From contig JAUVGW010000005.1 in NCBI GenBank assembly GCA_030593565.1, forward strand, positions 1 through 39,369: DNA of 39,369 bases, in the 5' to 3' direction. The notes under the pieces were generated by a model that ran no database searches, was not told the origin of the DNA, and worked only from the letters and a program-made list of their open reading frames with translations. Made by a program: the position numbers and the translations under genes. This document shows positions 5,487 through 22,030 of the stretch, piece by piece. The stretch comes from Phycisphaerae bacterium (GTDB taxonomy: Bacteria > Planctomycetota > Phycisphaerae > UBA1845 > UTPLA1). The first letter of the stretch is position 1. Every line of letters starts with the position of its first letter.

Positions 5487-6281
5487 CTATCGATCGAGCA
5501 GTTGGTTGAGAATGATCTGGGTGTCCGCCTCATCTACTTGGCAATCCCCATTGAAGTCAGCCCGTGGACGGCCTTCGGAATCGACGAGGGTGCCGGGGGC
5601 GGTGTCCGGGCAGATATCGAGAGGATTGATGATTCCATCGCCATCGCAGTCGGCGTACTCGACCGCTTGGACGGCCAGGAAATCGTCCAAAAACATGCTT
5701 GGTGGAGGGGTCAAGAGGCAAGCGCAGGCTGACAGGCCGAGGCCGCCGACACCGTAACCGGCATCGGCCACGACGAGGCTCAGATTCGGGCTTGTATGCT
5801 CGAATGTGATGACCGCCCCCTGCATGGGCGGCAGCTTGGCGATGATCCGGGGAGACGCCGGAGCGCCTGGACAGGATTCGTCAATGGTAATCATCTCCGG
5901 GGCGTACTGGATGTTAGTGGCACCGATGGGGAGCAGGTCGTCGAAGAAGATGGCCTCGTCCCACCACAGCGAGAGGTCGAAGTTGATGAGAAACAACATT
6001 CCGGTGCCCTGCTCGAGATCGTATTCCCATTGGACGGTTATGTTCTCATCAGAGGTCGAACCCACAATCGGGTCGGCATAGGTATGTTGAGCGTGATAGA
6101 GACACAACAAGGCCGCTAACAGCATGACCGCAAAGCCGCGTCGGATTCTCTTGCCGTCTTGCCGGTGGTCCAACTCGTCGTCAGATGGTGAACCGTTGGC
6201 GGAAGATGGCGCTATCTCGGTAAGGATGTTCTCGCAAAGCATTTCGACCGAGCCCGCGAGAGGCGTTTGTTTAACTTTCAT
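5487..6281 (-). CDS. Exported protein with C-terminal dockerin-like calcium repeat
   Basis: The ATG at 6281 overlaps the TGA of the upstream gene (ATGA), with GAGG eight bases before it inside that gene, so translation is probably coupled. The 264-residue product has a long basic N-terminal region and a hydrophobic export segment at about 50-65 (FAVMLLAALLCLYHAQHTYA); an internal ATG (residue 52) is a possible alternative start, but it would shorten the signal. Residues about 70-200 show no known domain and contain several Cys. The C-terminus has DCDGDGIINPLDICPD and DFNGDCQVDEADTQIILNQL, a thrombospondin/dockerin-type calcium-binding pair, and shares the phrase VDSEGRP with its upstream neighbour. 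Function unknown; probably a secreted or surface protein made together with that neighbour. Confidence 0.75.
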   Translation of the reverse strand: MKVKQTPLAGSVEMLCENILTEIAPSSANGSPSDDELDHRQDGKRIRRGFAVMLLAALLCLYHAQHTYADPIVGSTSDENITVQWEYDLEQGTGMLFLINFDLSLWWDEAIFFDDLLPIGATNIQYAPEMITIDESCPGAPASPRIIAKLPPMQGAVITFEHTSPNLSLVVADAGYGVGGLGLSACACLLTPPPSMFLDDFLAVQAVEYADCDGDGIINPLDICPDTAPGTLVDSEGRPRADFNGDCQVDEADTQIILNQLLDR

Positions 6282-7723
6282 TGGAGCAACCTCTGTTGGA
6301 CGAATACCTGAATGTCACGTCCGTCCACTTTGCAATCGTCATTAAGGTCGGCATAGGGTCGGCCCTCACTGTCGACCGGGCATCCGACCGTGGAGTGTGG
6401 ACAGATATCTTCATCCTGGCCAAGCCCATCGTTGTCGATGTCCGGGTCACAGGCATCGCCGAAGCCGTCGTCGTCCCAGTCGGCCTGGTCGGGATTGTTG
6501 AGCGTTGGGCAGTTGTCACTGACGTCGGGAACGCCATCACCATCAGTGTCGTCGGGGAGGATGCCCGTGACTTTGGCCATGTGGATCCCGAAATCCCCGC
6601 CGTAGATGATCAAGGCCAGTTGATTCCCATCGAGGGCTTCTCGCCCCATTTGCAAATAGCTGACGGTCCCGTCGCCGAACGGATCGCCTTGAGCAATCAC
6701 TTTTCTCAGAACTCCGTCGCAGTACAAATAGACTCCGAAAGGATAGTCATGTGAGAACGCAACGTAACGGCCGCTGATGGAGACATCCCGAATATTCTCA
6801 AACGTCCCTTCGCCTTCCGGTATGCTCGTGTTTTCGTCGGCTACAAGATGGAGTTGTTCGTCGATGTAGGTATAGACGCCACTGAACCCCGAAGCTCCAT
6901 AGCCTACAAACGCGACATTCCCGCAGCCCAGAGACGGCAAACCAAAGCCGGTGAAAGTACCTTCTGCCCCTGGGATAGATGTGTTGGTGTCGGCGAGCAC
7001 GCTGAGTACGCCGTCCCGGAGTAGATAAATGCCACTTCCATCCTGACCGTCACCATGGAAAGCCACGCTTCCCTGCTTGATCATTGGCCAGTAGACGCTT
7101 GAGAATGTCCCCGTTCCGCCAGGAATGGTCGTGTTGTTGTCAGCAAGGACGCTCAACTCCCCGTTCGCCCACAAGTAGATACCACTCCCTTCAGCATGAT
7201 CTCCCCAGAACACCACTCTCTCTCCGTCAATGGATGGTTCCCCGAAGTCCACGAAATGCCCAGTTCCGCCCGGGATGAGTGTGTTGGTGTTCGCGACTTG
7301 TTTCAGCTTGCCTTGAGAATAGACGTAAATGGCCTCCTGCCATGTGGTGTCCGACGCGAGAAAGGCCACGGCGGCACCACTGATCGATGGCCAGTGGAAA
7401 CCGTAGAACCTCAGCCTTGCCGTACTCCCTGCGATCGGCGTGTTTGTGTCTGCCACGCAACTGAGTGTGCCGTCGACCACAAGGTATATGCCGCTATGGC
7501 GGTGGGGTTGGTCCGACCTTTCAAACGCCACGCGTCCGCTGCTGAGTGCAGACTTGCCGAAGCGTGTGAAGTCCCCTGGACCACACGGGATCGGGGTTTC
7601 GGCGTCGGCGATCTTCGTGAAGGTCACGGTGAATTGGGCCGAGACCTCGGCGGGAATGCCGAAGGTGGCGGTCAGGATGAGGCAGGATGCAACGATTTCG
7701 GTTCGATGGCGTAGATTCCGCAT
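6278..7723 (-). CDS. Secreted beta-propeller-like repeat protein with thrombospondin type 3 and dockerin-like repeats
   Basis: The start chosen is ATG 7723, with GAGGA seven bases upstream, followed directly by a signal peptide (MRNLRHRTEIVASC to EVSA); the frame is open to 7822 but the extra 33 residues lack these signals. The 481-residue protein has at least five repeats of about 60 residues containing VAF-type strands, then GSGIYLL or similar, then LSVLADTNTSIPGG. This resembles the tandem NxxGxxAF repeat proteins of planctomycetes and cyanobacteria and suggests a beta-propeller. The end holds thrombospondin type 3 motifs (DTDGDGVPDVSDNCP, DDDGFGDACDPDIDNDG) and one dockerin-like helix. 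Likely secreted and calcium binding; ligand unknown. Its stop overlaps the start of the next gene. Confidence 0.82.
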   Translation of the reverse strand: MRNLRHRTEIVASCLILTATFGIPAEVSAQFTVTFTKIADAETPIPCGPGDFTRFGKSALSSGRVAFERSDQPHRHSGIYLVVDGTLSCVADTNTPIAGSTARLRFYGFHWPSISGAAVAFLASDTTWQEAIYVYSQGKLKQVANTNTLIPGGTGHFVDFGEPSIDGERVVFWGDHAEGSGIYLWANGELSVLADNNTTIPGGTGTFSSVYWPMIKQGSVAFHGDGQDGSGIYLLRDGVLSVLADTNTSIPGAEGTFTGFGLPSLGCGNVAFVGYGASGFSGVYTYIDEQLHLVADENTSIPEGEGTFENIRDVSISGRYVAFSHDYPFGVYLYCDGVLRKVIAQGDPFGDGTVSYLQMGREALDGNQLALIIYGGDFGIHMAKVTGILPDDTDGDGVPDVSDNCPTLNNPDQADWDDDGFGDACDPDIDNDGLGQDEDICPHSTVGCPVDSEGRPYADLNDDCKVDGRDIQVFVQQRLLQ

Positions 7724-7864
7724 TGTTGGGTCCTCAGCCAGGACGTAGGGGAAGCCGGTGTCGCTATTCCGGTTATCGGACGGATAGTGCTCTTGACCCT
7801 TAAGGAAAACCACGAGAACCATCGGCTAAGCGTCATGAAGCTGGTGTACGGAGCGCTCCTCCTT

Positions 7865-8413: not shown

Positions 8414-8906
8414 GACTGTCTCCTTTCTCGATGGTCGTTGCCGTGTGGGCTCTCGACCTGTCGTGTCTGGCGCCTGGCCGTGGCCGAGTGCCGAAGGACT
8501 GCGAGGCTGTCCCAATCTCGCCCATTGACGGGCCGTTGGGGCTCACCAGGATAGACACAGCGGCGGCCGGGAGGTTAGTAATACCGCACAAAGTAGGCAG
8601 CAGAGCCGGGGCGTATCGCCCTGCGCCGGCTCGGCACGAGCCGGCTCTGATCCCAAATTATCGAGATTCGGCGTCTTGTGTGGGCCGCGGCAGGAATATT
8701 CCCCGCAGCAGCCCCAATATGAGGGCGGAGAACCGGATTCGGCGTGTGTCGAGCCGTTCGGCAGACGGGCTCTCGGTGGGCCGAGAACCACTCAGAACCG
8801 GGTGCCGTGGTAGAATCGGCCCTGGCGAGGTATCGGTAGCTAAACGCGGACAAACGAAGGCGGAAAGCCGGACGCCGAAACAAGCCGCTTCTCAAGGAGT
8901 TCACCC
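8414..8906. other. 493-base spacer with a dispersed palindrome
   Basis: The two flanking genes point away from each other. The spacer holds the CAGAGCCGG palindrome (8601-8649) and further GC-rich inverted fragments (for example around 8752-8787). Short frames crossing it have no recognisable content. The AAGGAG at 8894-8899 is the ribosome binding site of the next gene. Confidence 0.55.
8601..8649. repeat. CAGAGCCGG...CCGGCTCTG palindrome, copy b
   Basis: Same arms and same length as the copy at 7865-7913, with changes in the centre (GCGTATCGCCCTGCGCCGG). The two copies flank the Tyr/Asp lipoprotein gene in direct orientation. Confidence 0.75.
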
Positions 8907-10556
8907 ATGCTTGGCAGACTGGCTGCTATTCGCATCAAGGCTGCGGAGGACGCTTTCGACCGGGGACGGTTCGACGAATCCTTCGAAATCGCCTCGGCCG
9001 TGGACCTTGCGAACCATCGACGTGCCCGTGGGCTGCTTCGGAAGCTGGTCGATCCCTTCCTGGAGCGCGGACAGGATCATCTCCTTTCGATGCGATTCAC
9101 CGAGGCGCTGGCGGATTTCGAACGGGCCGCGCGCTGCGGCCACAAAACAAAGAAGGTCGCCGAATGGCGCAAGCGGGCGATGGACGCGATGCAGGATGAC
9201 CAGCAGGTTCGGCACGAGCGAGACGCGGCCATTGCCGCGGCTCGCGATCGCCTGGCCGCGGGCAGTCTGCACAACGCGGCGGACGCGCTCGCCAAGGCGC
9301 CGGACGACGACCCGGACCGGGCCGTGATCGCCGACGAGATCGCCCGCCGATCGAAACGGGCGGAAGAAGCGCTCGCAGCCGCCAAGGCCGCGTTGAAGGA
9401 TGGTCAACTCGCCCAGGCGGTCGCGCGCTGGCGCGCTGCCAAGGCCCTGCACTCCGGATTGGACGGAGTCCACGATATGGAAACCAAGCTCGTTGCCCAC
9501 GCCGTCAAACTGGCGGCGGCCGATTTCAAAGACGGTCGACTCGAGCGAGCGGAACAGCAGTTCCACCTCCTCGACGATGCGGGGCGCACGATGCCCGAGC
9601 GCATCGAAATGGACGAAGCCCTGCGCCTGGCGCGCGAAGCAGCCAAGGCGCTGTCGGACGACCGCTACGCCCGAGCCAGCGTTTTGCTGGGCAGGTTGAC
9701 GCAGGTTGGTCCGAAGGCGGCGTGGATCGGCGATGTCCGCAAGCACCTGTCGGTGCTGGAAGACCATCGCCGCGCGCTTCTGGAAGGCCCGCTGGGGCTG
9801 ATCTCCGGCCACAATGTGCCAAGCGCGGTTGGGGCGAAATCACTGTCTCCGGCCAAGCCGTTTCGCGGCGACGCAACCTTGCCCGCTGCCGAACGGCCGG
9901 TTGCCAAGCCTGCCATGGACCACCGGCGAGACGCCGGTGCCACCCCGCCACGTCGGGGCAGGTTGCCCCGTCGCCTGCTGCTTCGTATCGACGGTGCCGG
10001 CAGTTTTCTGCTGCTGCGCGGCGACCGCATCGGGATCGGCCGAAGCGGCCCCGGCGCGACCGCCGATCTGCCGCTCGTGAGCGATTTGTCGGAGCGGCAG
10101 GCGGAGGTGATTCGTGCCGGTGAGGACTACTTCGTCGTGTCGAAGTCGGGCGTGGAATTGGCAGGCCGCAATGTGGATCATGCGTTGCTGCAAGATGGCG
10201 ACCGAATCAGGCTCGGAAACCGGATCCGTTTGAAGTTCCGGCGACCGAGCCTCAAGAGCACGACTGCTATCCTTGATCTAGGTGACGGCGTTCGCACGAC
10301 CACCGATTGTCGGCGTGTGATCCTGTGGGGTGGGCCGTTATTGATGGGTGGCACGCGGGAGTGTCACATCCGCCTCAGCCCGAGCCTGGGTGGGGCCATT
10401 CTGATGGAACGTAACGGGCAACTGTGCATCAAACCCATGGGACCGGGCGGACAGGCCGTGCCTGTCGAGCTGGGTGTCCAAACGGAACTGGGTGAGCTTC
10501 GCTTGACCGCCAAGCCCTGGTCTGATGAGTCGGGCGGCGGCAAGGTGATCGCGTAA
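8907..10556 (+). CDS. Helical-repeat protein with C-terminal FHA-like domains
   Basis: Start ATG 8907 with AAGGAG seven bases upstream. Residues 1-300 are alpha-helical, with TPR-like units (for example FDRGRFDESFEIASAVDL and RFTEALADFERAARCG). Residues about 358-440 fit an FHA domain: LLRIDGAGSF, GIGRSG, then DLSERQAEV and DGDRIRLGNRIRL. FHA domains bind phosphothreonine; here the usual His after the Ser-Arg motif is Gln and the NG loop is degenerate, so binding may be altered. Residues about 453-535 look like a second, weaker FHA-like sandwich (LLMGGTRECHIRL). The linker at 339-355 is encoded by dispersed palindromes. The gene lies 22 bases before a Ser/Thr kinase, so it is probably a substrate or adaptor of that kinase. 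Confidence 0.82.
   Translation: MLGRLAAIRIKAAEDAFDRGRFDESFEIASAVDLANHRRARGLLRKLVDPFLERGQDHLLSMRFTEALADFERAARCGHKTKKVAEWRKRAMDAMQDDQQVRHERDAAIAAARDRLAAGSLHNAADALAKAPDDDPDRAVIADEIARRSKRAEEALAAAKAALKDGQLAQAVARWRAAKALHSGLDGVHDMETKLVAHAVKLAAADFKDGRLERAEQQFHLLDDAGRTMPERIEMDEALRLAREAAKALSDDRYARASVLLGRLTQVGPKAAWIGDVRKHLSVLEDHRRALLEGPLGLISGHNVPSAVGAKSLSPAKPFRGDATLPAAERPVAKPAMDHRRDAGATPPRRGRLPRRLLLRIDGAGSFLLLRGDRIGIGRSGPGATADLPLVSDLSERQAEVIRAGEDYFVVSKSGVELAGRNVDHALLQDGDRIRLGNRIRLKFRRPSLKSTTAILDLGDGVRTTTDCRRVILWGGPLLMGGTRECHIRLSPSLGGAILMERNGQLCIKPMGPGGQAVPVELGVQTELGELRLTAKPWSDESGGGKVIA
9921..9971. repeat. Palindromic repeats inside the FHA-protein gene
   Basis: CACCGGCG-AGA-CGCCGGTG (9921-9939) is the same palindrome as in the spacers at 12818-12863 and 26393-26415. 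It is followed by CGGGGCA-GGT-TGCCCCG (9954-9970). Both are read in frame and encode the linker HRRDAGATPPRRGRLPRR between the helical and FHA parts. Confidence 0.75.
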
Positions 10557-10578
10557 CAACCACCGGGGTCGGAGTGTC

Positions 10579-12798
10579 ATGGCTTTCCAATTCAACCAAG
10601 GCGATCGGCCGCTATCGGGCTACACGATCGAACGCGGGGTCGGTCGCGGCGGGTTCGGCGAGGTCTATTACGCCAAGAGCGACGGCGGCAAGGAAGTCGC
10701 CCTCAAGTACCTCCGCGAGAATCCGCAGGTCGAGCTTCGCGGTGTGGCGCATTGCCTGAATCTCAAAAGCCCGTACCTCGTGGACCTGCACGACGTCAAG
10801 CAGAACGCCGACGGCGATTTCTTCGTCATTATGGAATACGTCAGCGGCCCCTCGCTGCGCGATCTGATGAACAACGAGCCCGACGGGCTCGGTCCGCAGA
10901 AGGCGGCCTACTTCCTTCGCGAGATCGGCAAGGGCTTGGCCTACCTGCACGATCGTGGGATCGTTCACCGCGACCTGAAGCCCGGCAACATTTTCTACGA
11001 GGACGGCTACGTCAAGATCGGAGACTATGGTCTGGCGAAGATCATGGCCGCGAGCCAGCATTCGGGGCAGACGGTGTCGGTCGGCACGGTTCACTACATG
11101 GCGCCGGAGGTCGGCAGCGGAAACTACGATCGCACGATCGACATCTATGCGATGGGCGTGATGTTGTACGAGATGCTGCTGGGCCGGGTACCGTATTCGG
11201 GTGCGACGATGGGCGAGGTGTTGATGAAACACCTGACGGCCCAGCCCGAGGTGGACGAGTTACCCGAGCCGTTTCCGCACGTGATTCGCAAGGCACTCGC
11301 CAAGGACCCGAAGGACCGGTACCAGAGCATCGGCGAGATGATGTCGGCCGTGTTTGGTGTCGAGAACATCGAGCGGTCGGTGGCGTCGTTGGATTCGTTA
11401 AGCCTGACTCGGATGGCCGCCGCGGTGTCGAAGAAGGTTCGGCAAGGCGTTGCCGTCGGCGCGGGTGGGGCGATGCGGGACGGCAGCAGCAATGTGCCAC
11501 CGCTTGGTGAAACACAGGCCGCGCAACCGCCGGTTATCGACCGAGCGCGGGGCGGGAAGCCGTATGCAGCAGATGGCGCCAGGCGCTTGCCGCACGCGAT
11601 GCCCGCGGCTGAACACCGCATGCGCGATTCCTCCGGTCAGCGGCTTCGCGGCTTTGTGAAGGACGGCTGGTTTCCAGAGAAGTCGCGCTTGACGACGGGT
11701 CTGTTGGGCGTGGTGTTGGGACCCGTGGGCGCCCACCGCTTCTATACTGGCTACGCCGGTGTCGGCGTGCTTCAGATCATCTTGACGTGCACAACGGGAT
11801 TTGGCGGTCTGTGGGGCTTCATCGAAGGCATCCGTATCTTGGCCGGCTTCGATTTTCGTGATTCGCTGGGTCGGCCGCTACTTGAGCGGGGGCTCCAGCC
11901 CGGCTCACGGCGCGGCACGGGCGAGGCGGTTGATGATGTGGTCAGGGAAATCGGCGATGGGATCGGGCGATTGGCAAAAGACGTTCGGGAGAAGGCCAGA
12001 AAGGTCGATCGCTGGGCGGTTTCCAGGACGATCTGGGGGATTGTGGCGGTGCTCGGTTTGTTGGCGGTGTGCGGATTCTTGTTGGGAGGGATGTTCGCAC
12101 CTGCCGAGATGGAGGAGATGAGCACGGGATTGAGCCCCGACTATTACGTCAATGTGTTTCATTGTTTCTATGGACTTGCCGCGGCATGTCTTGCGCTCGG
12201 CGTGTTTTCAGTTTGGAAGGCGGCACACCGTGCCGGGCTGTCGGCCTGGCGGGCGACCTTGCGCCCCGCCTTGTTATGCTGCCTGTTCACGATCATGACG
12301 GCCGGCTTCGTGTGGGCGCGTTTCTTCAGCGTCGGGCAATTTCAGCTTGCCGGGTTCATCGTGATGGGCGTTGCGGCATTGGCCTTCCTGTTCGTCTGGC
12401 TGCTGCGGGGGCCGAAGATTGCGATAGGACCGAGCGATCACTATTGGAACGTCGCCTGGGCACGTATTTTTGTGGTGCTGTCGATCGCAGCGATTGTCGG
12501 AATGGCCGCCGCAGGACGGTCATGGAATCGAGCCGGCCGCGTCTTCGAAACCTCCGACGAGGCTGTCTTCTCGTCGGTGAGCGTGTGGGACCACCAATGG
12601 GTGTATGACCCGGAGATCAAGGATAACAGGTACAGGCGAATCCGCGTGGACAAGCGGGGGCCCGCGCCGTCGTACAACGCGATGCCAGTGGCGCTCGGCC
12701 TGCTCGGCGTGCTGTTTGTCGGATCGATCAGCGAGGCTCAATATCGACGTAAGTCCGCGGCGCTGGCGTTGACGACGACGTCGGAAAGCACTGTTTAG
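10579..12798 (+). CDS. Membrane Ser/Thr protein kinase with TM2 domain
   Basis: Hanks-type kinase, 739 residues. Catalytic domain 15-255: glycine loop GRGGFGEV (22-29), Lys43 in VALKYL, HRDLKPGN with Asp132, metal-binding Asp149 in a DYG (not DFG) triplet, and the GTVHYMAPE motif after the activation loop. All catalytic residues are present. After a linker, residues about 367-425 form a TM2 domain (GVVLGPVGAHRFYTGYAGVG), then at least five further membrane spans to the C-terminus. The kinase is therefore cytoplasmic and N-terminal, with a multi-span sensor or anchor behind it. It follows the FHA gene by 22 bases, with GGAG close before the ATG, and precedes a paralogue whose first 249 residues differ at only two positions. 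Probably one operon with both. Confidence 0.93.
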   Translation: MAFQFNQGDRPLSGYTIERGVGRGGFGEVYYAKSDGGKEVALKYLRENPQVELRGVAHCLNLKSPYLVDLHDVKQNADGDFFVIMEYVSGPSLRDLMNNEPDGLGPQKAAYFLREIGKGLAYLHDRGIVHRDLKPGNIFYEDGYVKIGDYGLAKIMAASQHSGQTVSVGTVHYMAPEVGSGNYDRTIDIYAMGVMLYEMLLGRVPYSGATMGEVLMKHLTAQPEVDELPEPFPHVIRKALAKDPKDRYQSIGEMMSAVFGVENIERSVASLDSLSLTRMAAAVSKKVRQGVAVGAGGAMRDGSSNVPPLGETQAAQPPVIDRARGGKPYAADGARRLPHAMPAAEHRMRDSSGQRLRGFVKDGWFPEKSRLTTGLLGVVLGPVGAHRFYTGYAGVGVLQIILTCTTGFGGLWGFIEGIRILAGFDFRDSLGRPLLERGLQPGSRRGTGEAVDDVVREIGDGIGRLAKDVREKARKVDRWAVSRTIWGIVAVLGLLAVCGFLLGGMFAPAEMEEMSTGLSPDYYVNVFHCFYGLAAACLALGVFSVWKAAHRAGLSAWRATLRPALLCCLFTIMTAGFVWARFFSVGQFQLAGFIVMGVAALAFLFVWLLRGPKIAIGPSDHYWNVAWARIFVVLSIAAIVGMAAAGRSWNRAGRVFETSDEAVFSSVSVWDHQWVYDPEIKDNRYRRIRVDKRGPAPSYNAMPVALGLLGVLFVGSISEAQYRRKSAALALTTTSESTV

Positions 12799-12817
12799 TA
12801 GCCCATGACAAAACTGC

Positions 12818-12863
12818 GGCACCGGCATCTCGCCGGTGGGGTCACAGGCGAGACGCCGGTGCC
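12818..12863. repeat. CACCGGC double palindrome between the two kinase genes
   Basis: GGCACCGGC at the left pairs with GCCGGTGCC at the right, and each half (CACCGGCATCTCGCCGGTG and AGGCGAGACGCC) can fold on its own. The family recurs at 9921-9939 inside the FHA gene and at 26393-26415. In this 111-base spacer it could act as an mRNA stem that separates the expression of the two kinases. Confidence 0.75.
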
Positions 12864-12909
12864 ACAGAATATCGAGGTCGCGTTGCGAGGAAGATGAAGG
12901 ACGATAGCG

Positions 12910-15804
12910 ATGGCTTTCCAATTCAACCAAGGTGATCGGCCGCTGCCCGGCTACACGATCGAGCGCGGGGTTGGCCGCGGCGGATTCGGCGAGGTCTATT
13001 ACGCCAAAAGCGACGGCGGCAAGGAAGTCGCGCTCAAGTACCTCCGCGAGAATCCGCAGGTCGAGCTTCGCGGCGTGGCGCATTGTCTGAATCTCAAAAG
13101 CCCGTACCTCGTGGACCTCCACGACGTCAAGCAGAATGCCGACGGCGATTTCTTCGTCATCATGGAATACGTCAGCGGTCCGTCGCTGCGCGACCTGATG
13201 AACAACGAGCCCGACGGCCTCGGCGCGCAGAAGGCGGCCTACTTCCTACGCGAGATCGGCAAGGGCCTGGCCTATCTGCACGATCGTGGCATCGTTCACC
13301 GCGACCTGAAGCCGGGCAACATTTTCTACGAGGACGGCTACGTCAAGATCGGGGACTACGGTCTGGCGAAAATCATGGCCGCGAGCCAGCATTCGGGGCA
13401 GACGGTGTCGGTCGGCACGGTTCACTACATGGCGCCGGAGGTCGGCAGCGGGAACTACGATCGGACGATCGACATCTATGCGATGGGCGTGATGTTGTAC
13501 GAGATGCTGCTGGGCCGGGTGCCCTATTCGGGGGCGACGATGGGCGAAGTGTTGATGAAACACCTGACGGCCCAGCCTGAGGTGGACGAGTTGCCCGAAC
13601 CGTTCCCCCACGTGATCCGCAAGGCGCTCGCCAAGGACCCCAAGGACCGGTACCAGACGATCAACGAGATGCTCGCCGAGGTGTTCGCCGTCGAGGACCT
13701 CGATCGGTCGGTGGCGGCCTTCGAGCCGGTTGGACTGTCCGCCGTCGCCGCGCGGGTTGCGGCGCAGGTTGCCGTTGCTCAACAAGCGGTTGCGCCGGGC
13801 GCTCAACCTGCCGGCGGCGCGACGATCTCCGGACCGGGGCCGGGGCCGCTGGGCACGGGCAGCAGCAACGTCGGCCAGCAGGTCCCACCGCCTGTGATCG
13901 ACCCGACACCACACGCCGCGGGCGGGCGATTCGGGCGTATCCATGGTCGGATCAGCGCCCGCGTCGGCCACGTCGCGGAGCGCATAGATCACAGCACCAT
14001 AGGGCAACAGGTGTCGGCCGCTGCCCGGCGGCCGTCGCACTGGGCCGAGCGGATCTTCGTGGCGTTTCTGATTTCGGCCGGAATCTCCTTCGGCGCGAGC
14101 CTGATCGCGGCGGGCGGATGTTTTGACTACACCTTGGCCTGCTTCCTTCACGTGCTTGCCCTGGTGGTCGGCGTTGGCTTCGGCTATTGGCTTTGCGTGG
14201 ATCGGCTTCAACTCGCAGGTAAATGGCTGCCGCGGTTTGTCATCACGGCGTGCGCCGCGATCCTGCTTACTCCGGTTGGCATTGGCATTGGGATCGTCCC
14301 GATAAGCCCGTTTGCGGCAAATGTCCTGCACCTGCGCGTGGAGCACTGGGTCACGCCTTTCCTGTTGACGCTGTTTCTGTGTGATTGGCCATGGCGGTTT
14401 CATGAAGGCCGGAAAGGACGCGTCCACCTTGGCTCGGCGTTTTCCGCGGGGCTGTTCGCGTTCATTGTGGGCATGATCTTCACGCAGGGTAATCAAGGCC
14501 TGACGATCGCCGCGATCGTCGCGGCCACGTCGCTCACCTTGCAGACCATCGCGGGTATCTGGCCGCTTCGCAGCGCCAGGATGATCGCCCGGGCAGCGTC
14601 CGGCGTGGCGCCCGATGGCGGTTCTCCCGGTCATGGCGGCCCAGGCCACAAGACACCATTCGCGGTTGCTCGTGATGCCGCCAATGCCGCGTATGCCGAG
14701 AGGTACGGCGAACGAGCTTCGCCGGGTGTGGCCGTCGAGGCGGGTGGAACCGCGCCGCCCATGGCCTATGCCGCGGCCCCTGCGGTGGAATACGTGCGAC
14801 GAAGCGGCGGCGTCCGTACGTTATGGCTGTTCGTGGCGGTGCTCCTCGCGTTGACATCAGCGATGCTGTTCATCGCGTCCGGTACGTTACGGCTGAGCAA
14901 CGACGACGAAGCGGGCTTCATCGTGGGTGGTATCGTTGCCGGTAGTTACTTCTTGTTTGCATTGTGGTGCGCGGCCGCGCGGTTCAAGAAGGGCCTGTGG
15001 CGAGGCATCTTTCGCAAGGCGGTCTTCTTCACCGGTGCGGGACTGTCGGGCGGATGTGGTGCCGCCTTGGGGCTATTTTCATACCTGGGCAATGAGGGGG
15101 ATCTTATACTGATCGGCTGCATCATTGCCGGCGGGCTCATGAGCCTGTTTGTCTGGTTCGTTCCCGTGGGTGCATACATGCGGCCGCAGGATGCCGCCCG
15201 GGACGGCGACACCACACCGCAGCAGCGAAAGGGCAGGCAACTCAAGCTGGTCGGCGGCATTCTCATGGGCGCAGCCTTGATTGTATTGCTGCCGATCCTT
15301 GTGGCCGCGACTGAGGAGGGCATGGACGAGGAGGTGATTCCTGCTGTGATGGTGCCGGTCGTGGGCATGGCGACGGCGCTCCTCATCATCGGCGTCAGAA
15401 AAGGTCGCCCCCGGAAGCCCCAACCAGCCAAGCTGGAAATCCCACTTCGCGCCGTCTTCGAGATCGACGCCAACGCCAATCTCGCCGGTCTCATCGAGCG
15501 GCACATGACCCTGCTCGGGTACCGGTTGACGTCTTCATCCGATCTGTTGTGGTCGTTCGCGCGCGGGAACTGGACGGGCCAGTTCTGGCAATCCAACATC
15601 CGCCAATGGCTCACGCGGATCAACATCGCGGCCTACGTGCTGGACAACGGCGGCTATCGTCTGACCTGCTACGTCGACGTCGAGTCCGCCTTCAACCAGC
15701 CGGACCAGAAGATGTTCACGGTGTTGAAGGATGAACTCAACGACATGAAGGAACTCCTTGGCGGCCGCGATTTGGCGCGAAGCAACCAGGGAGAACCGGC
15801 ATGA
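12910..15804 (+). CDS. Membrane Ser/Thr protein kinase, paralogue of the upstream kinase
   Basis: Hanks-type kinase, 964 residues, with GRGGFGEV, Lys43, HRDLKPGN (Asp132) and DYG (Asp149). Residues 1-249 equal those of the upstream kinase except Pro13 for Ser and Ala106 for Pro, while the DNA differs at many third positions. From residue 250 the proteins diverge completely. This one has a Pro/Gly/Ala linker, about ten hydrophobic spans between residues 380 and 830, no TM2 domain, and a soluble C-terminal domain (about 840-964) with Trp- and Arg-rich stretches (GNWTGQFWQSNIRQWLTRIN) of unknown fold. Its stop overlaps the next ATG (ATGA). Likely the same type of substrates as its twin but a different input. 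Confidence 0.92.
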   Translation: MAFQFNQGDRPLPGYTIERGVGRGGFGEVYYAKSDGGKEVALKYLRENPQVELRGVAHCLNLKSPYLVDLHDVKQNADGDFFVIMEYVSGPSLRDLMNNEPDGLGAQKAAYFLREIGKGLAYLHDRGIVHRDLKPGNIFYEDGYVKIGDYGLAKIMAASQHSGQTVSVGTVHYMAPEVGSGNYDRTIDIYAMGVMLYEMLLGRVPYSGATMGEVLMKHLTAQPEVDELPEPFPHVIRKALAKDPKDRYQTINEMLAEVFAVEDLDRSVAAFEPVGLSAVAARVAAQVAVAQQAVAPGAQPAGGATISGPGPGPLGTGSSNVGQQVPPPVIDPTPHAAGGRFGRIHGRISARVGHVAERIDHSTIGQQVSAAARRPSHWAERIFVAFLISAGISFGASLIAAGGCFDYTLACFLHVLALVVGVGFGYWLCVDRLQLAGKWLPRFVITACAAILLTPVGIGIGIVPISPFAANVLHLRVEHWVTPFLLTLFLCDWPWRFHEGRKGRVHLGSAFSAGLFAFIVGMIFTQGNQGLTIAAIVAATSLTLQTIAGIWPLRSARMIARAASGVAPDGGSPGHGGPGHKTPFAVARDAANAAYAERYGERASPGVAVEAGGTAPPMAYAAAPAVEYVRRSGGVRTLWLFVAVLLALTSAMLFIASGTLRLSNDDEAGFIVGGIVAGSYFLFALWCAAARFKKGLWRGIFRKAVFFTGAGLSGGCGAALGLFSYLGNEGDLILIGCIIAGGLMSLFVWFVPVGAYMRPQDAARDGDTTPQQRKGRQLKLVGGILMGAALIVLLPILVAATEEGMDEEVIPAVMVPVVGMATALLIIGVRKGRPRKPQPAKLEIPLRAVFEIDANANLAGLIERHMTLLGYRLTSSSDLLWSFARGNWTGQFWQSNIRQWLTRINIAAYVLDNGGYRLTCYVDVESAFNQPDQKMFTVLKDELNDMKELLGGRDLARSNQGEPA

Positions 15805-16406
15805 ACGTCCACGGTTCAGCGGTCGGCGTCCTGGGGCTGCTCCTGCTCCCCGTGATTCTCGCGGTGGTCATCGGTCTGGTCTTCTTCGCCCGGCGGCGAC
15901 ACGGCTCACGGTCGACAGCCGGGCGAACCATCGGCTTCCTCATTTCCGCGGTATTCTGCCTCGCTCTGCTGGGTGCCGTCTCAGCTTTCTTCCTCAGTGC
16001 CAGCCCTGCACGTCGCGTGACTGCCGAGCGTATTCGCGTAATGGAAACTGAGCAGGCATACACCCTTGCCACCATCGAGCGCGGTTGCACCGCCGATGCA
16101 GGGACTCGAGACGATGCCGGGGAGGCGACGAGCTATCCGACGTTTGACGCCACCGTTCGTGTTCCCGACCCAGATGATGTGGACACGCTGACCTTCCAGT
16201 CCTGCACGTCATCAGAAGTTATCCAGCACAGCACGATCGTATCACAGATCACGGGTCTTAGCGGCATTTCTGTTCTGATCGTACTGGCATATCTGTTCGT
16301 CGACGCCGGTCGGCGCCGCCGCTATACTTGGCTCGTGAGGACCACTGCGGCCGCCGCGTTCATCGCCGTCTGCGTTCTGATTGCTGAGGTGTACCCGCTG
16401 ATGTAG
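15801..16406 (+). CDS. Small membrane protein coupled to the second kinase
   Basis: The ATG overlaps the TGA of the kinase gene, so the two are probably translated together. The 201-residue product has hydrophobic spans at about 8-30 and 45-66, a hydrophilic loop (about 70-148) with two Cys (residues 95 and 133), and two more spans at about 150-167 and 180-199, with a basic loop RRRRYTW between them. No family recognised. Gene order suggests a partner or regulator of the second kinase in the membrane; the loop between spans 2 and 3 may be periplasmic. Confidence 0.75.
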   Translation: MNVHGSAVGVLGLLLLPVILAVVIGLVFFARRRHGSRSTAGRTIGFLISAVFCLALLGAVSAFFLSASPARRVTAERIRVMETEQAYTLATIERGCTADAGTRDDAGEATSYPTFDATVRVPDPDDVDTLTFQSCTSSEVIQHSTIVSQITGLSGISVLIVLAYLFVDAGRRRRYTWLVRTTAAAAFIAVCVLIAEVYPLM

Positions 16407-16433
16407 GCGGGCGCCCTGAAGGTGGACGCACAC

Positions 16434-16469
16434 GGGTAAGCTACGCCGCCAAGGCGGCTTCGCTTACCC
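16434..16469. repeat. Strong hairpin between membrane protein and sigma factor genes
   Basis: GGGTAAGC (16434-16441) pairs with GCTTACCC (16462-16469), and the inner GCCGCC (16445-16450) with GGCGGC (16453-16458). There is no T-run behind it, so it resembles the other palindromes here more than an intrinsic terminator, but it could reduce read-through into the sigma gene. Confidence 0.6.
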
Positions 16470-16556
16470 ATGCCACCCCCACTGTATGCCTCTCCCGTTG
16501 CGTGCCACCTTCGCCAGATAGGCATTTGCGGCCGTCTACATCGAGGGTTTGCGGAC

Positions 16557-17459
16557 TTGGCTCAAACGAACGACGCCGACAGATTCCTGATCGAGGCCAT
16601 TCGAGGCGGCGATCAACGCGCCTGGCACCAGTTGATCGAGCGCTATCAGGGCCGATTGCTGGCCTTCGCCCGAAGCCGCCTGCGCGGCGTCGGTGACGCG
16701 GAAGATGCCCTCCAGGAAACCCTGATGGGTTTCGTGACAAGCCTGAAGCATTTCGACGAAAATCGCCCGCTCGAGACTTATCTGTTCGCGATTCTCCGCT
16801 ACAAGATCGGCGAAGTCCTTACGAAGAGGCAGCGCCATCCCGAATACACCGAGGGCTTCGACATCGACGACGACTCGCCGGGGCTCGTCGAGCCGTCCGT
16901 CTCCGAGACGCCCAGCCGGCTCGCGGCCGAGCACGAACGGACGGAGCGACAAGCCGACGTCGTAGCGACGATCCTCCGCCGGCTGATCGAGGAACTCCGC
17001 GACCGGGGCAAGCTCGAAGACTTGCAGGTCATCGAGCTGTTGTTCTATGTCGGGCTCCGCAACAAGGATGCCGCCGAGCGCCTCGGCCGTGACGAGAAGG
17101 CCGTCGCCGGCGTGAAGTTTCGGGCGCTCGGGCGACTTCGCGAGTTCGTCGACGAGTTGCAGGCCGACGACCGCGGCCTCCTCGATGATCAGCAGGTATC
17201 GAGCGAAGCCACGATCGCCCGCGTCTGGCGCGGCAGGCGACTGAGTTGCCTGAAACGCAGCACGATTGGCTCCTACCTGTTGGGCGTTCTCGAAGAACCT
17301 TGGTTGAGCTATACGGCGTTCCACCTCGATGCCGTCAAGTGCCTGATGTGCCGGGCCAATCTCGAGGACCTTTCCGCCGAGACGGAGCAGGCGCCCGAGG
17401 TCGATGTCACCGAGCGGATGTTCCAATCCAGCGTCGGTTTCCTGTCATATCGAGGCTGA
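16557..17459 (+). CDS. ECF-like RNA polymerase sigma factor with C-terminal Cys-motif extension
   Basis: The frame opens at 16470, but TTG 16557, with GAGGG nine bases upstream, fits the start of sigma region 2 better and gives 300 residues. Region 2: FLIEAIRGGDQRAWHQLIER through DAEDALQETLMGFV to RPLETYLFAILRYKIGEVL. Region 4 is the helix-turn-helix RNKDAAERLGRDEKAVAGVK. No sigma region 1 or 3 is seen, as in ECF factors, but the protein is much longer than a normal ECF sigma (about 180-200). The extra C-terminus holds GSYLLGVLEEPWLSY, then FHLDAVKCLMCRANLEDL, with a His-x5-Cys-x2-Cys arrangement like the zinc site of anti-sigma factors. It may be a built-in regulatory domain. It lies behind the two kinases on the same strand. 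Confidence 0.87.
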   Translation: MAQTNDADRFLIEAIRGGDQRAWHQLIERYQGRLLAFARSRLRGVGDAEDALQETLMGFVTSLKHFDENRPLETYLFAILRYKIGEVLTKRQRHPEYTEGFDIDDDSPGLVEPSVSETPSRLAAEHERTERQADVVATILRRLIEELRDRGKLEDLQVIELLFYVGLRNKDAAERLGRDEKAVAGVKFRALGRLREFVDELQADDRGLLDDQQVSSEATIARVWRGRRLSCLKRSTIGSYLLGVLEEPWLSYTAFHLDAVKCLMCRANLEDLSAETEQAPEVDVTERMFQSSVGFLSYRG

Positions 17460-17757: not shown

Positions 17758-17802
17758 CTCGCCCAGTCGGAGGTGGTGGGGCTCAGTCAGGAGGATGGAA
17801 AC

Positions 17803-20076
17803 GTGGCGTATTCAGATTCGCCCGGAATCCCGTACATCGCACTGATCATCGCTGCTGTCGCGCTGACCGCGACTGCTGCGCGCCTCGACGCCACGAACGG
17901 TACGGCGGTCTGTGTTGTCGCCAACATTGCCGGGCCGAACGTCGATTCGTCCGCGCAGGGCGAACTGCCGCCGAAGCAGTCCGATGCCGAAAAGTCGTCC
18001 GATGATGATGCCGCTGAAAACGGTGGCAGTGCTGCCACGGTGGACGAGCCGTCGAGCGGCCAGGCCGCCTCCCAACCGTCGACGACGCCATCAACGGAAC
18101 CAGCAACAGCGGACGAGGAAGACGATGAATCCGACGCGCCGCGAGTCGAGGTCTATATTCCCTCCGTCACGGCGCTGATCGACGCGGCGAAACGGTCACA
18201 CACCGCCGAGATCGGCCGGGCGGTGTCTGGGATGGTGACGTTGCCGACCGACGAATCGGACGAAGACCTGGATTTCGACGCCGTCCTGGAGCTGATTGAA
18301 CAAATCGGCAATTGGCCCGACACCTCGGTCGTCCTGACGACGTACACCATGGATCGGGACGGCCGTTCGCGCTGGGCGCTTCGAGTCGATTGGCCGCTGG
18401 CCGAGCTTCGAAAACGGATCGACACACTACTCGCGCTCGATGCTACGGGCAAACTCCTCAAAGACATCACGGTGGAAGACGGCCCGGATGGAACCGCGCG
18501 CCTGGAAGCACCGGACCTGATCCTCGCCATCCTCCGAGGCGACGGCGATGGTTCGCTTGTCGCTTCGACGGCCGACCTGAAACCGCCCGAAGCCGTCTTC
18601 GGCAAGAAGCAAGAAACGACACAGCCTTCCAAAAAGAAGCCCTCACTCCTGTATTGCCGCCTGGATCTTGCCGCCGAGGAGGAAGGCAGCGATTCTCCGT
18701 TTGCCGGATTCTCGGTGGTCAAGGACATCCGGTACGCCGTGACGCTCCGAAAGAACGGCCAATGGAACGAGAAATTCGCCGTCCGCTGGCATCCTATCCT
18801 CGGGATCGCGATCAAGGCGACCTTGGGCAAGCTGGACACACCGTTTGATTGTCCCCGAGATGCCTATGTGGCGGCGGCCTTTAATGTCGGATTCGGTGAG
18901 AGCATCGCTGACAGCCTCACCGGTCTCCCTCCCGGCACGATTGGTGGACGCGCGAGCAACGAGGCCGCGGTCGCCGTCGTGCCCGGCACGGGTTTTCTGC
19001 CGCTACCCGACACCTTCTTCCAGTTCTACACACGAAGCAAAGAGCGCATCGTCAAGAAAATCCGCACGTTCATCGAGGAAGACCGGAAAGAGCGCGAGGA
19101 AGAAGACCGCGGCCTCGCCTGGCATGAGGAAGACATCGACGGCCGCGTCGTCTTCTGGCACGATCCGTCCGCCGACGGCCCCACCGGGATCATGCCCGTC
19201 ACCTACCGAACCGTGATATTCTTCGATGAGCCCGACGACGCGGATAAGTCGGACCGCATACGCCTGATCGTTGCCCAAACATCCACCTGGGCGGACGACG
19301 CCGTTCACAATTGGGACGCATTGATGAAATCGCGCAAGTCGCGGATTGCCATTCCGAGCAGAAAGAAGGCGCACTGGCAGGCGAGGATCAGTTGGCGACA
19401 CATCTACAAGCTGGCCCAACCGTATCTGGCCTTGCTCGCCGGCATGTCAGACGATGCAACGCTGCCGCCCGACGCGGAGGAGCTGGACCATGCATTGCCG
19501 GATTCCGTCATTGACGTTCGCGTTCAGTTTGGCGGGGTCCAGGTTCGCCATGTCGGCCCGATCCCGTTTGGTGCGGCTTACGTGCCGATTGTCATGATTG
19601 CCTCGCTTACAGCCGCCAACGATTGGTCGTCCGAGTCAGGTCGCGAGCGCATCGCCTGTCGACACCTTCGCGTGCTGCACCACCATGCCAAGCTGTTCAA
19701 GAAGGACTACGGCCGCTGGCCCGCCACGGTCGCCGAACTCGACGGATACGTCGATTTCGACACTCATCGGTATCTGCTGAGGCTGCGTCCACAGCACAAG
19801 GGCATTGCCGCCGGGTTGATCTCCAAGCTGACCGGCGAGAAAGACGAACCCGTGGATGAAGAGGGCGAGATCGTGATCGACGACTCGCTGTACGTCATCG
19901 ACTGGTCCCCGAGCGAGTGGAAATTGCGATTCCGGGATGATGAATTCAAACAATACCTAACCATCTACATCGATGCGGACGGTGAAATCCACCGTGAGCC
20001 TAAACAGGGAGAAAAAAGGGGGCAGGCTACTTTATCACCAGAGTCATCGCCCTATTCAAGGGGCAAGCCAAGATAA
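17803..20076 (+). CDS. Large envelope protein of unknown function
   Basis: Start is GTG 17803, with AGGAGG eight bases upstream; the frame is open from 17773 without such a signal. The 757-residue protein has one N-terminal hydrophobic segment (residues about 8-30, signal peptide or anchor), an acidic Ser/Glu/Asp/Pro-rich linker to about residue 110, and a long soluble part. A basic-acidic helical stretch lies near 415-435 (KKIRTFIEEDRKEREEEDRG). Near residue 630, ACRHLRVLHHHAKLFKKDYG then RWPATVAEL resembles the YG-RWP-EL pattern common in large secreted planctomycete proteins. No catalytic motif recognised. The last 20 or so codons and the TAA stop come from a palindromic element (20008-20100), so the original C-terminus may be lost. 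Confidence 0.78.
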   Translation: MAYSDSPGIPYIALIIAAVALTATAARLDATNGTAVCVVANIAGPNVDSSAQGELPPKQSDAEKSSDDDAAENGGSAATVDEPSSGQAASQPSTTPSTEPATADEEDDESDAPRVEVYIPSVTALIDAAKRSHTAEIGRAVSGMVTLPTDESDEDLDFDAVLELIEQIGNWPDTSVVLTTYTMDRDGRSRWALRVDWPLAELRKRIDTLLALDATGKLLKDITVEDGPDGTARLEAPDLILAILRGDGDGSLVASTADLKPPEAVFGKKQETTQPSKKKPSLLYCRLDLAAEEEGSDSPFAGFSVVKDIRYAVTLRKNGQWNEKFAVRWHPILGIAIKATLGKLDTPFDCPRDAYVAAAFNVGFGESIADSLTGLPPGTIGGRASNEAAVAVVPGTGFLPLPDTFFQFYTRSKERIVKKIRTFIEEDRKEREEEDRGLAWHEEDIDGRVVFWHDPSADGPTGIMPVTYRTVIFFDEPDDADKSDRIRLIVAQTSTWADDAVHNWDALMKSRKSRIAIPSRKKAHWQARISWRHIYKLAQPYLALLAGMSDDATLPPDAEELDHALPDSVIDVRVQFGGVQVRHVGPIPFGAAYVPIVMIASLTAANDWSSESGRERIACRHLRVLHHHAKLFKKDYGRWPATVAELDGYVDFDTHRYLLRLRPQHKGIAAGLISKLTGEKDEPVDEEGEIVIDDSLYVIDWSPSEWKLRFRDDEFKQYLTIYIDADGEIHREPKQGEKRGQATLSPESSPYSRGKPR

Positions 20077-20100
20077 AGTAGCCTGACCCCTTTTTTCTCC
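20008..20100. repeat. 93-base REP/MITE-like inverted repeat
   Basis: Two 28-base arms (20008-20035 and 20073-20100) are inverted copies with a single mismatch. They begin GGAGAAAAAAGGGG and continue to GGCTACTTTAT, around a 37-base centre. The form resembles REP-type elements mobilised by IS200-like tyrosine transposases, though no transposase is in the window. The right arm holds the TAA stop of the upstream gene (20074-20076) and ends directly before the AAGGAG ribosome binding site of the next gene. Confidence 0.85.
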
Positions 20101-20113
20101 AAGGAGCCTGAAC

Positions 20114-22030
20114 ATGCAGCGAATCATTCCATTCCTGATTGCGGTACTGTTTCTGACGTCGACGTCCGCGCAGGTTGCCTATGCCGACCGCGGCCTGGGC
20201 GACGAGAAAAAGGACAAGACGAAGCTCGCCGAGGACAAGGCCGAGTCTGGTGACGACAAAGAAAAACCAAAGGCAAAGCCCAGCCCGATCAAGAAGCTCG
20301 TCGAGGTGAAACTCGATCGGTTCCTGGTGTCGGCCAAGGCGATCAATCTGCCGTTGCCCGGCAAGACGCGGACAGTTCGAGAACTGATCGAACGGTTCGA
20401 GAAGCACGCCGAAGACGAGGAAGTCGGCGCGATCCTACTGAACCTCGACGGCCTCGCCTTGGCGCTGCCCGACGTCGAGGAACTACGCGCAGGCGTAGCC
20501 GACTTTCAGAAAGCGGACAAGAAGGTCTTCGCCTATCTCAACGGCGGCGGCCCGATGGGATATCTGCTGGCGTGCCAGGCCGACGAGATCGCCGTCGCCC
20601 CAACGGGCGGCCTGGTGATACCGGGCATCGGACGACTGTTCCCGTTCATGCGGGGCATGTACCAGATGCGTGGCATCGAGTACGACGTCATCACTGCCGG
20701 GCGGTTCAAGTATCCCGGTTTCGTCAATCGGCGGGAACCGAACAAGTACTTCGTCCAGGAGTTCGGCGAGATTCTCGACGACTGGTACGAGGACTACGTC
20801 AAGTTCATCGCCGAGGGGCGCGACATGCCGATCGAGAAGGCCAAGGAGGCCATCGACATCGCCTTGTTCGACGCGCAACGGGCGAAGAACCGGGACCTCG
20901 TCGACGTCATCGCCTATTACGAAGACTACCGCGACCGTGTCGTGCGACGCCACAAGTTCAAGAAGGCTCGCGACGACGACTCGGATTTCGCGAACATCAC
21001 CTCCTTCACCGACCTGCTCAACGCCATCCAGAAGCAGATGAAGGAGGCTCAGAAGGACTATGCCGAGGTCGGTCCGAAGATCGCCGTCATCCATGCCCGT
21101 GGACCGATCATCGACGTGAACATGGGGGCGTCATTCGCCAACCAACTCATTATGCGCGATCAGTTCGTCAAGACGATCGATCAGGTTCGGAAGAACAAGA
21201 CGATCCGCGCGGTCGTGCTGCACATCGACAGTCCCGGCGGGTCCGGCTATGCCTCTGACGTTATCTGGCAGAAGCTCCGTGAGCTGGACGAGGAGAAGCC
21301 GCTCGTCGTCAGCATGGGCACGGTTGCCGGTTCTGGCGGCTACTACATCGCGTGCCCCGGCCGGCTGATCTTCGCCCAGCCGACGACGATCACGGGATCC
21401 ATCGGCGTCATCACGATGATTCCCAATCAAGCCTCGGCAATCAACAGGCGGGACATCAACTTGTACGAAATGAAACGCGGCGCAAGGTCCTTGTTTGCCT
21501 CCGGTCATCGCGGCATGTTGCCCGAAGACCGCGCCTTCTTGCAGAAGTACATCCTCGACTTCTACGAGATTTTCCTCGATCGCGTCGCCGCCACGCGGAA
21601 GATGCCCAAGGACGAAATCCGAAAAATCGCCGGCGGTCGCATCTACACGGGTCGTCAGGCGCTCGAGATCGGTCTGGTGGATCGCCTCGGCGGTCTGAAA
21701 GATGCCGTGGCGGCCGTGCGCGAAATGGTGGATATCCCCGCCAGTGCCGAGATCAAGCTGGTTCACTATCCCCGGCCTGTCTCGATCGGTGAACTCGTTG
21801 GTGACTTCGCCGGGTTGGGCATGTCGATGGAGATGCTGATGCAGGCGCAATCGCAGGCGCCCCGGATCTCGTTCGACAATCAGCTTCGCTTCTTCGCACA
21901 GTCACCCAAGCCGCTGTGCTGGATGGCCCTGCCGGAGGCACACCTGCTGATGAATCCGCCTGTAGCCCAGCCATCGGCCGCCGATCTCCTCGGCCTGCCG
22001 CAGATGTCGCCAACGTTGCCGCTACGTTGA
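20114..22030 (+). CDS. sppA: Signal peptide peptidase SppA-type serine protease (S49)
   Basis: Membrane-associated protease expected to degrade cleaved signal peptides. Start ATG 20114 with AAGGAG seven bases upstream. Residues 1-24 form a signal peptide or anchor, then a Lys/Asp-rich linker. The 638-residue length and two S49-type halves match the long E. coli-type SppA. Lys199 in AGRFKYPGF occupies the place of the catalytic Lys in the N-terminal half, and Ser407 in GTVAGSGGYYIA is the nucleophile in the C-terminal half, close to the E. coli positions (209 and 409). SPGGSGYASD and TTITGSIGVI are further family motifs. The C-terminal 60 residues are a separate tail. It lies immediately behind the REP-like element. 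Confidence 0.92.
   Translation: MQRIIPFLIAVLFLTSTSAQVAYADRGLGDEKKDKTKLAEDKAESGDDKEKPKAKPSPIKKLVEVKLDRFLVSAKAINLPLPGKTRTVRELIERFEKHAEDEEVGAILLNLDGLALALPDVEELRAGVADFQKADKKVFAYLNGGGPMGYLLACQADEIAVAPTGGLVIPGIGRLFPFMRGMYQMRGIEYDVITAGRFKYPGFVNRREPNKYFVQEFGEILDDWYEDYVKFIAEGRDMPIEKAKEAIDIALFDAQRAKNRDLVDVIAYYEDYRDRVVRRHKFKKARDDDSDFANITSFTDLLNAIQKQMKEAQKDYAEVGPKIAVIHARGPIIDVNMGASFANQLIMRDQFVKTIDQVRKNKTIRAVVLHIDSPGGSGYASDVIWQKLRELDEEKPLVVSMGTVAGSGGYYIACPGRLIFAQPTTITGSIGVITMIPNQASAINRRDINLYEMKRGARSLFASGHRGMLPEDRAFLQKYILDFYEIFLDRVAATRKMPKDEIRKIAGGRIYTGRQALEIGLVDRLGGLKDAVAAVREMVDIPASAEIKLVHYPRPVSIGELVGDFAGLGMSMEMLMQAQSQAPRISFDNQLRFFAQSPKPLCWMALPEAHLLMNPPVAQPSAADLLGLPQMSPTLPLR

Follow-up and report, generated by a model that had tools for sequence, protein, structure and literature searches.

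A conserved FHA–kinase–sigma block in Planctomycetota with homogenised tandem kinase domains, a candidate membrane phospho-signalling locus

The window analysed here, a 39,369-nucleotide stretch of planctomycete DNA, carries five genes on the plus strand that we read, with equal weight for and against, as a membrane phospho-signalling block in which kinases with shared catalysis and different sensors would drive a single self-inhibited ECF sigma factor, probably under autoregulation. These genes encode a 549-aa TPR-like and FHA protein (8907–10556; ORF call, Pfam and structure model), two Hanks-type Ser/Thr kinases, K1 (739 aa, 10579–12798) and K2 (964 aa, 12910–15804), both assigned by Pfam and hydropathy, the 201-aa membrane protein MP4 (15801–16406; hydropathy and a layout common to same-position relatives) and a 300-aa ECF-like sigma factor with a TTG start (16557–17459; Pfam, orthologue alignment and Foldseek). 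The gaps between them are 22, 111, −4 and 150 bases, the negative value being an ATGA overlap through which MP4 is translationally coupled to K2. Pfam returned Pkinase (3e-49) in both kinases and Sigma70_r2 (7e-13) in the sigma factor, and hydropathy gave about six transmembrane (TM) segments for K1, about ten for K2 and four for MP4. The sigma start at 16557 is backed by relatives; a longer reading frame is open from 16470. A first-pass annotation had described five genes on one strand with these gaps, and all of its reading frames were recovered in place on the plus strand. It did not mention how nearly identical the kinase domains are, nor the C-H-C-C extension of the sigma factor or an upstream element at 8694–8720.

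Conservation and surroundings of the block

Gene order was compared with relatives, the named ones being Phycisphaerae or Planctomycetota metagenome genomes. The first-pass annotation had tied its proposal to an order retained in relatives, and the order holds, with a kinase of the K1/K2 family directly after the FHA gene in 40/40 order-level loci (loci taken around FHA orthologues) and FHA–kinase adjacency in 15 of the 16 further loci that carry this kinase family elsewhere in Planctomycetota. Beyond the window's own family and class this order is kept, mostly with the sigma gene, at kinase identities of 51–67%. Such conservation argues that the five-gene arrangement is not due to chance. As the remaining kinases of the source genome reach at most about 40% identity to the window kinase domain, the K1/K2 kinase is taken as a distinct family, which was found in 28 of 294 genomes sampled across the phylum (E<1e-75). 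From these comparisons the block appears ancient but patchy across the phylum, not universal. Many genomes have only one kinase, which shows that a second input is dispensable, and about half of the order-level loci with a sigma gene are without MP4. Three tandem kinases of the K1/K2 family (465, 545 and about 780 aa), no two with the same tail, occur together in one locus (L050, L051).

The sigma gene adjoins the FHA–kinase pair in 22/40 order-level loci, contig ends accounting for part of the remainder, and nine of ten genomes without an adjacent sigma gene carry one copy elsewhere. The tighter FHA–kinase than kinase–sigma adjacency, together with the displacement of the sigma gene in about ten genomes, would suit kinases whose signal passes mainly via the FHA protein to targets outside transcription, such as envelope or division proteins, the sigma factor being merely a co-regulated neighbour. 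We consider this unlikely, since the sigma gene stays single-copy and is adjacent in over half of the order-level loci and across classes.

Several features of the surroundings were also recorded. Right behind the sigma gene (17773–22030) lie genes for a 767-aa protein of no assigned function and an SppA-type S49 peptidase, a pair also found behind the sigma gene in L031, L033–L036, L040 and L171; a Pfam search of P7 returned no family. Two proteins encoded on the minus strand at 5487–7822 look secreted and contain thrombospondin type 3 repeats; a dockerin-like end is present in one of them and DUF7453 in the other. One record titled Alphaproteobacteria bacterium IP29b_bin.190 (L116) carries the planctomycete block, and its label is probably wrong. 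Among the titles and abstracts listed for papers about sigma/kinase loci of planctomycetes and about gene conversion in signalling systems, none described the block.

Tandem kinases and the FHA and MP4 proteins

The kinase domains of K1 (10579–11352) and K2 (12910–13683), both on the plus strand, are two copies of a homogenised module with 93.2% nucleotide identity. The likeness starts exactly at the ATG and stops near codon 258, and the sequences before and after it are unrelated. Over codons 1–248 the copies differ by 2 amino-acid changes. They are set apart by 41 synonymous differences, with a within-pair dS of 0.29 and dN of 0.004, and the Hanks-type residues K43 (catalytic Lys), D132 (HRD Asp), D149 (DYG) and G22/G24/G27 of the glycine loop are invariant in 13 aligned domains. 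The K1 tail contains a TM2 domain (aa 367–418, Pfam) that K2 does not have; the unrelated K2 tail has about ten TM segments and, at its C-terminus, a soluble domain. The earlier suggestion of two kinases with one catalytic specificity and different membrane parts is supported by both the near-identical domains and the unrelated tails.

Comparison between genomes shows that domains and tails have different histories. The window kinase domains are about 82% identical to those of any other genome, versus 93% to each other, and their dS to the G007 orthologues is 1.14–1.37, versus 0.29 within the pair. Tails of the K1 (TM2) type are orthologous in the window, G007, G016 and G008 (35–45%), K2-type tails occur throughout the window's family, and K1 of other families has an RDD tail. 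After an old duplication the kinase domains would be expected to sort by K1 and K2, and AU tests show otherwise, rejecting a single K1 clade (p 0.003; order-wide 3e-7). By dS, within-genome pairs of K1 and K2 are seen in the window, in G008 (0.17), in L099 (0.26, a single-chromosome record) and in L126 and L129; diverged, non-homogenised pairs are present in L148, L051, L115 and L037. With domains closer within a genome and tails orthologous between genomes, the pattern points to gene conversion, and its simplest reading would be recurrent conversion restricted to the shared domain under strong purifying selection, as the low dN suggests.

Near-identical domains in the window could also stem from recent duplication or from faulty assembly, and the source genome is a draft assembly in 461 contigs (with 36 Pkinase matches). 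We regard this as very improbable. The synonymous differences set the copies apart, which speaks against collapsed sequence, and the orthology of K1 tails between genomes speaks against recent duplication. In addition, the same pattern is present in the single-chromosome record L099 and in G008, where a 141-nt perfect repeat splits the kinase domain over contig ends and identity beyond the repeat is 95%. An artefact was rejected on the synonymous differences and on these two genomes. Between K1 and K2 in G008 (L170, about 2060–2900) lies a membrane protein that has no kinase domain and is homologous to the K1 tail, a sensor half with no catalytic half.

Gene conversion would keep one catalytic domain on different sensors, which supports the idea of a two-input system. 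The first-pass annotation had offered this idea for the window, and it now has firmer footing than it had there, with catalytic domains homogenised in several genomes and tails distinct.

The FHA protein comprises helical repeats (aa 1–299, 8907–9803), an FHA domain (aa 377–437, 10035–10217) and a second beta domain (aa 454–537, 10266–10517). Its AlphaFold model (pLDDT 87) shows a helical TPR-like array followed by two C-terminal beta domains, and TPR matches were obtained as well. The Pfam FHA match, at 19.0 bits, is under the cut-off of 20.7; despite this, the predicted FHA domain is supported by family conservation and by the model. Among the candidate phosphate-binding residues, G378, R379 and S395 are present in the window and Gln stands in place of His, and the phospho-binding motif is lost in f5, a sister family group retaining the locus. 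A role for this protein as a phosphothreonine reader is uncertain. MP4 is built of two TM segments, a loop and two further TM segments, and its same-position relatives (150–612 aa) have in common the 4-TM layout and a C-terminal motif, the loop being variable. The loop is a possible sensor.

The sigma factor and its C-terminal extension

Region 2.2 of the sigma factor reads GDAEDALQE, with A48, E49, D50 and Q53 fully or almost fully invariant across 23 orthologues, and most families, the window's own among them, keep the DAED motif. The mechanism of EcfP is defined by loss of this acidic motif (PMC8103513, PMC8999054), and an EcfP/ECF43-type phospho-switch was rejected on the intact DAED. Switching of the sigma factor in the manner of known kinase-linked ECFs is not supported, as DAED is kept and an anti-sigma-like extension is found instead. 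Control of this sigma factor probably differs from the known phospho-switch.

The extension spans 84 aa after region 4 (17205–17456, plus strand) and ends in an SSVGFL motif. Cys231, His256, Cys262 and Cys265 are invariant in 23 aligned orthologues, and nine columns are invariant over 21 sequences, two free-standing forms included. These two forms come from another family (L077, L080), in which the sigma factor stops after region 4 and the extension homologue is a separate protein of 135–142 aa, encoded about 0.8–1.1 kb downstream of the shorter sigma gene with one gene between and bearing an extra N-terminal helical-looking stretch. Fusion of the domain in one lineage and its separation in another suggest that it interacts with the sigma factor. 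The Pfam zf-HC2 family matched one of the 21 extension-domain sequences (E 0.04) and, weakly and below the cut-off, one full free-standing homologue (E 0.0016). Foldseek searches with the sigma factor returned ECF sigma factors only, and the extension by itself matched nothing. The extension may be a former anti-sigma partner, and it is read as inhibitory because of its anti-sigma resemblance.

A competing account of sigma control is direct phosphorylation, as in EcfP/PknT or EcfK/PknS, within region 2.2 or the sigma2–sigma4 linker, which would enable polymerase binding. The kinase and sigma genes are neighbours, EcfK is phosphorylated in its linker (PMC13147305), and a conserved ETPS stretch ends the linker here. 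This stretch coincides with the predicted start of a helix, however, and its role may be structural, and DAED is retained in most families, that of the window included. Direct phosphorylation is in our estimate improbable.

The upstream element and relation to known systems

A promoter-like bipartite element, GAATATT-N15-CAATAT, occupies 8694–8720 on the plus strand, ends 186 bases ahead of the FHA start codon and has no second RAATA-N17-VATAY match in the window. It emerged from a de novo count of dyads in the sequence ahead of the FHA gene, compared with shuffled sequences. AATA-N17-AATA, always identically spaced, is carried by 14/14 family-set loci, and two other family groups have AATA-N15-CGAA (38/44) and AATA-N16-GAAT (13/14), shuffled maxima being 4–6; in family group f5 the count gave no element. 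Away from the locus, AATATT-N15-AATAY occurs 36 times in 17 family genomes versus a mean of 11 at other spacings (hand-read). A spacing contrast of 13 at N17 versus 0–2 at every other spacing is a sounder argument than the binomial p-values, which are optimistic since coding sequence makes up most of the background. No spacing excess was seen in class-level genomes that have no clear sigma orthologue, with 15/135 among the matches listed (Fisher p 0.0005), a contrast that is supportive only, as base composition differs between the genome sets. In f8, genome-wide counts were 22 versus about 16 among the matches listed (hand count), with no clear enrichment.

The element also recurs at an unlinked membrane-protein gene (G000:C223:16941-17618), which is single-copy and kept in 16 of 17 family genomes, and upstream of which it is found in 10 of the 16 orthologues, G012 included. 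Pfam gave no family for this product, the candidate second regulon member, nor for another candidate target; the product has a recurring N-terminal TTVV-type motif. Placement of the element ahead of both the block and this gene suggests autoregulation.

An alternative, which we place only a little short of even, is that a different transcription factor binds the element, which would then not be the promoter of the block's sigma factor. Its half-sites resemble a direct repeat about 21–22 bp apart, it matches no common ECF motif (no standard GAAC..CGT was found upstream of the FHA gene), and a search upstream of displaced sigma genes did not find it. A promoter is favoured by a spacing that suits −35/−10 regions, by conservation that is tightest at the sigma factor's own operon and by the lack of spacing enrichment, among the matches listed, in class-level relatives without the sigma factor.

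Taken as a signalling block, the locus could work as follows. K1 and K2 would sense different membrane or envelope signals through their unrelated tails, with MP4 probably contributing through its outer loop, and a single catalytic domain, kept identical by gene conversion, would let both kinases act on the same substrates. The sigma factor, with DAED intact, would bind RNA polymerase unaided and would be held back by its zinc-like, anti-sigma-like C-terminal domain; kinase activity would lift this block, the TPR/FHA protein probably serving as a scaffold or a phospho-reader, and the released sigma factor would transcribe from the bipartite element. More tentatively, and with the balance somewhat against it, gene conversion within one operon may hold the catalytic domains of tandem kinases identical as sensor halves are exchanged, so that signals converge on a sigma factor with a fused former anti-sigma, released by kinase and FHA protein.

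EcfP/PknT of Vibrio parahaemolyticus and EcfK/PknS of Xanthomonas citri, of group ECF43, are like the block in having a membrane Hanks-type kinase beside an ECF sigma factor under presumed kinase control. The block's sigma factor differs in keeping DAED, where ECF43 (EcfP type) has neutral residues with a Thr, and the block adds the C-H-C-C extension, an FHA partner, often two to three kinases and a 4-TM protein. Regulatory domains fused after region 4, Cys/His-rich in some cases, are known from the ECF52 zinc finger, CorE-like ECF238 and IutY; the extension here is short and soluble, has the C-H-C-C pattern, is a separate gene in other planctomycetes and is accompanied by kinases. ZAS anti-sigmas have the ligand pattern H-x3-C-x2-C. 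Spacing in the extension is of a similar kind to that of ZAS/zf-HC2 proteins, and its free-standing homologue is likewise encoded close by, one gene downstream of the sigma gene, but the extension has H-x5-C-x2-C, a sub-cut-off Pfam score and no membrane attachment.

Parallel pathways are usually insulated, and paralogous two-component kinases diverge. If the proposed mechanism is true, homogenised sensor kinases would be the reverse of this insulating divergence, and paralogues held identical in specificity would be unusual among bacteria. In addition, a 2022 review noted that kinase-linked ECF groups retaining DAED may work unlike EcfP and need characterisation (PMC8999054). The block resembles these groups, by features alone, in its acidic motif and neighbouring kinase, and has the extension and the homogenised tandem kinases besides. 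It offers DAED-keeping kinase-linked ECFs a candidate mechanism, by way of the anti-sigma-like domain fused to the sigma factor, along with a candidate promoter and another gene as a second target, and the question of how such sigma factors are controlled thereby becomes testable.
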